Below, one piece after another: positions 20,543 to 21,680 of a stretch of DNA of 64,000 nucleotides. Origin of the DNA: Herbaspirillum sp. (lineage in GTDB: Bacteria > Pseudomonadota > Gammaproteobacteria > Burkholderiales > Burkholderiaceae_D). The notes beneath the pieces are model-generated. The model was given only the letters and a program-made list of their open reading frames with translations. It ran no database searches and had not been told where the DNA came from. The stretch is from NCBI RefSeq assembly GCF_017744395.1, contig NZ_JAGIBI010000002.1, positions 558,001-622,000 of the forward strand, read 5' to 3'. The position numbers and the translations under genes are program-made. Every line of letters begins with the position of its first letter. Position 1 is the first letter of the stretch.

Positions 20543-20787
20543 GGGCAGGCGTTCTTGCAGTTTGTTGTCGGGAGTACGGGGCACGAAGGGCGCCATGCTG
20601 CGGCGCATTCGTTCCGGCCATGCCATTAAAGAGTTGCCGCCGGAGGCGATGGTTCCGCCGTCGGCGGGGCGGGCCGCGAAGTTCAGCGCTTGTCTGACGC
20701 GCCGTGTGGGAAATGAGGGGGCGGGCGCCTTGGCGCGAAAAATTCGCCGGGCGCATGGACTCGGCAATCCAAAGTCAGTACAATGCG
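20543..20787. other. Intergenic region between opgD and the Mn riboswitch
   Basis: About 245 bases that should hold the opgD promoter and the start of the riboswitch transcript. No gene with a ribosome site was found. A -10-like TACAAT at 20779-20784 just precedes the riboswitch P1 stem. Confidence 0.5.
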
Positions 20788-20930
20788 CGGGTCATTGGGG
20801 AGTAGTCGCCCTTCGCCTGAGAAGGGGCCCGCGTCAACATACTTGATCCACAGATCATGGCGCCGGCGGTTCCTGGGAATGCATCCTTCAGCGGGATGTG
20901 TTCCTCGCTTGACAAGACCTTTGACCACGA
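20788..20930 (+). promoter_or_regulatory. yybP-ykoY manganese riboswitch
   Basis: The leader carries the family's hallmark blocks in order: GGGGAGTAG at 20797-20805, GTCAACATACTTGA about 30 bases later, and GACAAGACCTTTGACC at 20911-20926. The P1 helix can form between GGTCA (20790-20794) and TGACC (20922-20926). This family senses Mn2+ and typically controls Mn exporters. Here it precedes a TMEM165/GDT1 gene. The remaining 70 bases to the start codon contain competing pairings, described under findings. Confidence 0.9.
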
Positions 20931-20999
20931 AGCCTCCGACAATGGCCGGGGAGCGCGCGTGGTCATTCGTTTTAGTCCGGCCATGGAGAGAAAAACCCA

Positions 21000-21575
21000 A
21001 TGGATGCATTCCTTGTTTCCACAGGCATCGTCGCACTCGCCGAAATCGGCGACAAGACCCAGCTGCTGGCCTTCATCCTGGCCGCCAAGTTCCGCAAGCC
21101 CGTTCCCATCATCGCCGCCGTCCTGGTCGCGACCATCGCCAACCACGCCTTTGCCGGCGCGCTGGGCGCGTGGATCACTTCGCTGCTGTCTCCTGAAACC
21201 CTGCGCTGGGTGCTGGGCGTTTCCTTCATCGCGATGGCGGTGTGGACGCTGATTCCCGACAAGTTCGATGAAAGCGAAGCCAGGTTCGGCCGCTTCGGCG
21301 TGTTCGGCACGACCTTGCTGACCTTCTTCCTGGCCGAGATGGGCGACAAGACCCAGGTCGCCACCGTGGCGCTGGCGGCGCAATACCATGCCTTCGTGCC
21401 GGTGGTGGCCGGCACCACGCTGGGCATGATGATCGCCAACGTGCCGGCGGTGATCCTGGGCGACCGCATCGCCGGCAAGATCCCGGTGCGCGTGGTGCAT
21501 GCGATCGCCGCGGCGATCTTCGCCATCCTGGGCGTGGCGACCTTGCTGGGCGCAGGAAAATCGCTGGGATTCTGA
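21000..21575 (+). CDS. TMEM165/GDT1 (UPF0016) family cation exporter
   Basis: Inner-membrane protein of 191 residues with six or seven helices in two homologous halves. Each half carries the family's E-x-G-D-K-T-Q motif (AEIGDKTQLLAF near residue 14; AEMGDKTQVATV near 113). Family members export Mn2+ (and Ca2+ in eukaryotes). The yybP-ykoY riboswitch directly upstream supports Mn2+ as the substrate here. GGAGAG is the ribosome site, ten bases ahead of the ATG. The gene is monocistronic, closed by a terminator. Confidence 0.93.
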   Translation: MDAFLVSTGIVALAEIGDKTQLLAFILAAKFRKPVPIIAAVLVATIANHAFAGALGAWITSLLSPETLRWVLGVSFIAMAVWTLIPDKFDESEARFGRFGVFGTTLLTFFLAEMGDKTQVATVALAAQYHAFVPVVAGTTLGMMIANVPAVILGDRIAGKIPVRVVHAIAAAIFAILGVATLLGAGKSLGF

Positions 21576-21593: not shown

Positions 21594-21631
21594 AAACAGC
21601 CCGCTGCATTTGCATGCAGCGGGCTGTTTTT
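21594..21631. terminator. Bidirectional terminator
   Basis: Fifteen-base stem AAACAGCCCGCTGCA / TGCAGCGGGCTGTTT with a six-base loop. It lies between the convergent GDT1-family and asparaginase genes. Confidence 0.94.
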
Positions 21632-21680
21632 ATTGCGCCTCCATGAAGCGGCGGCCTGTCCGGCGCGCCGCCCTGGCGGA

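Follow-up and report, generated by a model that had tools for sequence, protein, structure and literature searches.

The leader of a gdt1 gene in Herbaspirillum sp. raises the question of how an RNA that would sense manganese controls the gene behind it, in which direction and at which step of expression. The gene lies in a stretch of 64,000 nucleotides that was analysed as a whole (the window), and all features described here are on its forward (+) strand. A preliminary description of this DNA had proposed a Mn2+ (yybP-ykoY) riboswitch on a GDT1-family gene, followed by a pairing that competes with the aptamer helix P1 and by another hairpin that involves the ribosome site. It had suggested a scan with the Rfam model as a check.

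The aptamer and the gdt1 gene

The scan bore out the proposed riboswitch, with an RF00080 (Mn2+ riboswitch) match at 20780-20989 scoring 76.7 bits against a curated cut-off of 45 (E 3e-18, Rfam covariance model). The match lies upstream of a metal transporter gene (GDT1, PF01169) and was the one RF00080 match found in the 4.3-Mb genome. The gdt1 leader is a genuine predicted Mn2+-sensing riboswitch of a well-known class. By our own delimitation, the aptamer spans 20790..20926. Its conserved blocks show no difference from known RF00080 members, whereas an extended peripheral arm (20875-20912), in which GGGAATGCATCC is paired with GGGATGTGTTCC, sets it apart. Such an arm is missing in some members of the genus, e.g. 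L088, and in L094 a much longer insertion separates the aptamer from the downstream platform.

The P1 5' strand GGTCATTGG (20790..20798) is conserved in the RF00080 alignment, and P1 is absent from the Rfam consensus structure line. From the known aptamer, we take P1 to be GGTCA (20790-20794) paired with TGACC (20922-20926); read from the sequence, the 5' strand also pairs with CC at 20918-20919. Upstream, a pattern scan found one promoter-like site where 0.3 were expected, TGGACT-17-TACAAT at 20756..20784. Because this site ends at 20784, transcription would be expected to start near 20790, the first base of P1. A -10-like hexamer starts 18 or 19 nt upstream of GGGGAGTAG in 47 of 84 gdt1 leaders.

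The gene itself (gdt1, UPF0016; 21000..21575) encodes 191 amino acids. The GDT1-family assignment was upheld by a PF01169 match of 152.3 bits (cut-off 27), which falls in two stretches, and by the presence in the translation of two E-x-G-D-K-T motifs, EIGDKT and EMGDKT; the family is defined by two E-x-G-D-(K/R)-(S/T) motifs (PMC7380456), and both are found here. Comparison of Gdt1 with NCBIfam models and PDB sequences gave no match. Its nearest named relative found, at 94% identity, is the protein of a metagenome-assembled genome labelled Herbaspirillum frisingense. We infer that Gdt1 is a putative Mn2+ exporter of the GDT1 family. MntP gave no match in the window genome, which, together with the single RF00080 match, makes Gdt1 the only exporter candidate found behind this riboswitch in the genome. 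The gene is preceded by the Shine-Dalgarno sequence GGAG (20985..20988). Downstream of it, a strong terminator-like hairpin with a T-run was seen by eye at 21598..21634, between gdt1 and a convergent asparaginase gene; it was not flagged by a terminator pattern scan.

Two hairpins in the leader, predicted to be mutually exclusive

The region between the aptamer and the start codon can form two hairpins. Hairpin A (anti-P1; 20922..20965) joins TGACCACG, which extends the P1 3' strand TGACC, to CGTGGTCA (20958-20965) in a lower stem, with an upper stem of GCCTCCG against CGGGG-A-GC; further downstream, GGTCATT at 20961-20967 duplicates the P1 5' strand. Folded alone, A reaches -22.9 kcal/mol (z -3.9), which none of 200 shuffles equalled. 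It is followed by the U-rich tail TTCGTTTT (20966..20973; 6 T of 8). Hairpin B has its 5' strand ATGGCCGGG at 20942..20950 and its 3' strand TCCGGCCAT at 20976..20984, directly upstream of the ribosome site. The segments from which the preliminary description had drawn its pairings were all found in place: TGACCAC (20922-20928) and GTGGTCA (20959-20965) for the anti-P1 competition, ATGGCCGG (20942-20949) and CCGGCCAT (20977-20984) for the second hairpin, and CTCC (20934-20937) and GGAG (20985-20988) for an extension of the latter. Together, A and B in the window were stronger than all 300 dinucleotide shuffles (z -5.6). The segment 20927-20999, which holds B with the CTCC-GGAG extension, was no better than shuffles (z -0.45, 59/200), so that hairpin B rests on conservation and not on energy.

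For the free window RNA, folding models gave a P(A) of 0.99 and a P(B) of 0.00; with P1 forced, these values became 0.00 and 0.93. In these models the platform is a two-state switch, predicted to fold into A when free and into B once P1 is forced. The P1 state was 5.6 kcal/mol costlier than A in the window and on average 11.2 kcal/mol costlier in models of 38 leaders, which implies that switching would need Mn2+ binding together with the order of co-transcriptional folding. Across the same 38 leaders, mean P(A) was 0.93 and mean P(B) 0.03 in the free state, against 0.02 and 0.57 with P1 forced. P(A) exceeded 0.5 in 36 of the free leaders, the two others favouring B (L051) or neither hairpin (L068). 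In most models P1 thus appears to decide whether A forms, and B gains when A cannot.

Conservation was assessed on leaders of related genes. Of 134 loci, 121 had a gdt1 match, and in 84 of these a strict aptamer motif stood at the distance expected. Automatic location gave 83 platforms, of which 42 non-redundant ones (<80% mutual identity) were aligned. In this set the lower stem of hairpin A was paired in 95.9% of cells, with compensatory changes at 6 of 7 pairs, and its upper stem in 74.3%. Hairpin B was paired in 93.2% of cells, with compensatory changes at 4 of 7 pairs. Another short stem, in which AGAC of the P1 3' strand pairs with the tail, was paired in 73.8% and showed no compensatory changes. 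Taken together, the lower stem of A, B and a short outer stem held 40 cells with changes on both sides, compared with 7.0 in shuffles, which ignore relatedness, and 3-10 with slid partners, a control that takes relatedness into account. The combined energy of A and B was reached by at most 2 of 100 shuffles in 41 of the 42 leaders, the sole exception being L113 (4/100). Both the anti-P1 competition and the second hairpin of the preliminary description are supported by these results. A and B are well supported as a predicted conserved output module of gdt1 leaders, mostly in Burkholderiales but also in some other Gammaproteobacteria; platform-bearing leaders include those of Thiolinea and Thiothrix (L038, L042).

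The B core lies a median of 12.5 nt from the start codon, and B ends 9-15 nt upstream of it in 32 of the 42 leaders. By scan, 6 of the 84 gdt1 leaders have no Shine-Dalgarno site, which argues that B is not simply a Shine-Dalgarno switch. In five leaders from Duganella and relatives (L011, L015, L017, L048, L058), the scan finds no such site and hairpin B stands at about its usual place. Two further leaders directly 5' of gdt1 (L003, L004) lack an RF00080 match at gathering score, yet their platform is preserved on its 3' side, with CCGGCC upstream of the Shine-Dalgarno site. They may be relics of a riboswitch that was lost, or may arise from the assembly.

Direction and step of control

The best explanation, and in our judgement a rather likely one, is a riboswitch that Mn2+ turns ON, placed before a GDT1-family gene for a Mn2+ exporter, with mainly translational output. 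Without Mn2+, the P1 3' strand TGACC would be captured by GGTCATT (20961-20967) to give hairpin A, which would also occupy part of GGCCGG. Once Mn2+ is bound, the aptamer would hold P1 and A could not close; GGCCGG would then pair with CCGGCC, and hairpin B would form immediately before the Shine-Dalgarno sequence. The step at which B acts would come later than the termination decision and would most simply be the start of translation. Untranslated RNA might in addition be lost through Rho, as reported for E. coli mntP, and in the window a contribution may also come from weak termination at the U-rich tail of A.

The ON direction is favoured for the window by the published induction of related exporter genes by manganese. 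The GDT1/UPF0016 member mneA is reported to be Mn2+-induced in V. cholerae (PMC7380456), as is mneA of V. parahaemolyticus (PMC13274385). The B. pertussis exporter gene BP3410 is described as induced by Mn2+ via its riboswitch (PMC8546581). In E. coli, the Mn-free mntP leader is reported to leave the ribosome site inaccessible, and Rho terminates transcription (PMC11647493). We conclude that the riboswitch probably turns the exporter on, not off, at high manganese.

The folds of the platform do not by themselves give this direction. The preliminary description had cautioned that polarity cannot be read from sequence, and the caution was justified. The energy needed to open the ribosome site was equal in both states (7.05 kcal/mol free vs 7.06 with P1 forced, p = 0.86, 38 leaders). 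Several results count against the best explanation: no fold was found in which the ribosome site is hidden specifically when Mn2+ is absent, P(B) exceeded 0.5 in only 22 of the 38 leaders with P1 forced, and the P1 state carries the energy cost given above. That the coding region might mask the Shine-Dalgarno sequence in the A state was first suggested by folds of a redundant set (mean opening 3.68 in A vs 2.80 in B, with A higher in 57/78). When codons were randomised synonymously as a control in 38 non-redundant leaders, this candidate failed (3.39 vs 3.24 randomised, p = 0.83; A vs B 3.39 vs 3.17).

As to the step, the 3' strand of B is synthesised after the tail of A, so B would act after any termination decision; by the same reasoning, hairpin B was ruled out as an antiterminator. 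The narrow distance between B and the start codon points to translation. In published RNA-seq of Vibrio mneA and terC, coverage does not drop at the riboswitch, and the regulatory step is not assignable from these data (PMC13274385).

The main competitor, which we regard as possible at perhaps half the weight of the translational reading or somewhat less, is a Mn2+-ON transcription attenuator in which A and TTCGTTTT form a weak intrinsic terminator, P1 with Mn2+ acts as antiterminator and B is secondary. The preliminary description had not noticed the tail after A, and with it a possible transcriptional contribution in the window. In favour of this reading, the window has a stable hairpin that shares P1 and, after it, a tail with 6 T of 8; tails after A average 3.7 T of 8 over the 42 leaders (47%, vs 23% T in whole platforms), and those of 11 of the 18 leaders in the genus set have at least 5 T. 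For the B. pertussis riboswitch, a ~200-nt RNA was also reported, which the authors took for a product of premature termination in the absence of Mn2+ (PMC8546581). However, tails with at least 6 T occur in just 5 of the 42 non-redundant leaders, the window's own included, which would make intrinsic termination at best lineage-specific, and five of the 18 genus-set leaders end in TTCGTCCG, two of them (L002 and L093) being identical. In addition, part of the tail can pair instead with AGAC of the P1 3' strand, the terminator scan, whose loop limit may exclude such a hairpin, did not flag A, and the conservation of B beside the start codon would be left unexplained. Within the genus, T-rich tails (e.g. 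TTGTTTTT) are found in L082-L086, vs TTCGTCCG in L002, L088, L091, L093 and L098; this split may indicate that output has shifted between transcription and translation.

The translational reading with Mn2+ as the ON signal has a more specific form, to which we give a low probability. Here, the Mn2+-bound state would be P1 plus an H-type pseudoknot, in which the inner part of A stays paired and B closes across it. A compact RNA fold would then be docked at an almost constant spacing from the start codon, as an activating and portable module on exporters of three Pfam families (GDT1, Mntp, Na_Ca_ex). In 30 of 42 leaders, an inner A helix that leaves the B core free exceeded the mean of the shuffles in strength (p = 2e-4); this helix has some overlap with the end of the lower stem, so that the test is not independent. 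B also keeps its distance where a Shine-Dalgarno sequence is not evident (L143, L150). The preliminary description had held that the two pairings cannot easily coexist. They are exclusive in the folding models, but inner A and B use different bases in some relatives, where a pseudoknot could form. If true, this would make B an activating fold and not a masking one. The energetics of the platform give no sign of the way in which Mn2+ would open the ribosome site, which makes the step from the two folds to expression a clean, testable question.

A Mn2+-OFF translational switch, in which B and the CTCC-GGAG extension would mask the ribosome site in the presence of Mn2+, is improbable. The preliminary description had derived such masking upon P1 formation as the plain reading of the sequence. 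The extension can be drawn, and it appears when 20927-20999 is folded alone, but it is weak, with a probability of 0.19 in the window with P1 forced. As a conserved mask it was rejected, since its pairing across 42 leaders (4.17 bp vs 3.89 bp in shuffles) was not significant (p = 0.06), and the unchanged opening energy likewise lends the proposed masking no support. Moreover, a like layout stands before the gene of the efflux pump MntP (L104), whose E. coli homologue is reported to be turned on by Mn2+ (PMC11647493). That the aptamer alone matters and A and B are by-products of GC-rich sequence is very improbable: the B region alone is not unusually stable, but the compensatory changes and slid-column controls contradict this reading, B is retained with quite different sequence in L143, L150, L101 and L100, and 41 of 42 leaders lie beyond the shuffles.

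Other exporters and known systems

We further surveyed the riboswitch in relatives of the window organism. An RF00080 match was present in all 34 genus genomes, above the cut-off in 29, and in 200 of 294 genomes of the family, above the cut-off in 184. Among 41 genus matches, 30 were examined, of which 18 lie upstream of gdt1, 10 of mntP and 2 of Na/Ca-exchanger genes; Pfam was run on 3 of the 12 non-gdt1 genes (L104, L099, L100) and on L134 from the family. Across these genus loci (L001, L082-L110) the exporters differ, as if swapped behind one switch.

The leaders of other exporter families also allow a like layout to be drawn, a point not noticed in the preliminary description. With different sequences, A and B were drawable on mntP leaders (L101, L104, L105), on Na/Ca-exchanger leaders (L100, L134, L145) and on divergent gdt1 leaders (L143, L150); in no case did more than 2 of 300 shuffles do as well. 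In L100, L104 and L105 the helix scored as A is the inner helix, and the P1 3'-strand pairing was drawn by eye only. For alx, the best helix pair found is of doubtful relevance (5/300 shuffles as good).

The window agrees with the RF00080 riboswitches known on UPF0016/GDT1 genes in aptamer, in gene family and in position. Such an arrangement is the rule: of 333 UPF0016-bearing bacterial strains that were screened, 328 are reported to have the gene under a Mn2+ riboswitch (PMC7380456). In Herbaspirillum seropedicae SmR1, the RNA Hsnc112 is described as an RF00080 member as in the window, but it is located on mntP and not on gdt1 (PMC7011215). The E. coli mntP leader, which is translational, ON and Rho-assisted, allows an anti-P1 helix GCACATCA/TGATGTGT of the same topology as in the window and a second helix GCTGGGG/CCCCGGT that ends 12 nt before the start codon. 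This likeness is modestly beyond chance (z -2.3, 6/300 shuffles as good), and the gene family differs from the GDT1 of the window. The mntP-type layout, an anti-P1 helix with a second helix by the ribosome site, is found in the window; its description is our own and not a published one.

B. pertussis belongs to the same bacterial order as the window organism. Its BP3410 locus shares with the window a Mn2+-induced exporter gene behind RF00080, but the gene is of the calcium:cation-antiporter type, and the description of calcium:cation antiporter domains rules it out as a GDT1 orthologue (PMC8546581). A gene with the Na_Ca_ex domain from the family of the window organism (L134) carries an A/B-like platform. 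Among the matches listed in openly licensed literature, we recognised no description of the two-hairpin platform. The link between the aptamer and GDT1 genes is already known, and what is added here is a conserved output module that is recognisable on two further exporter families.
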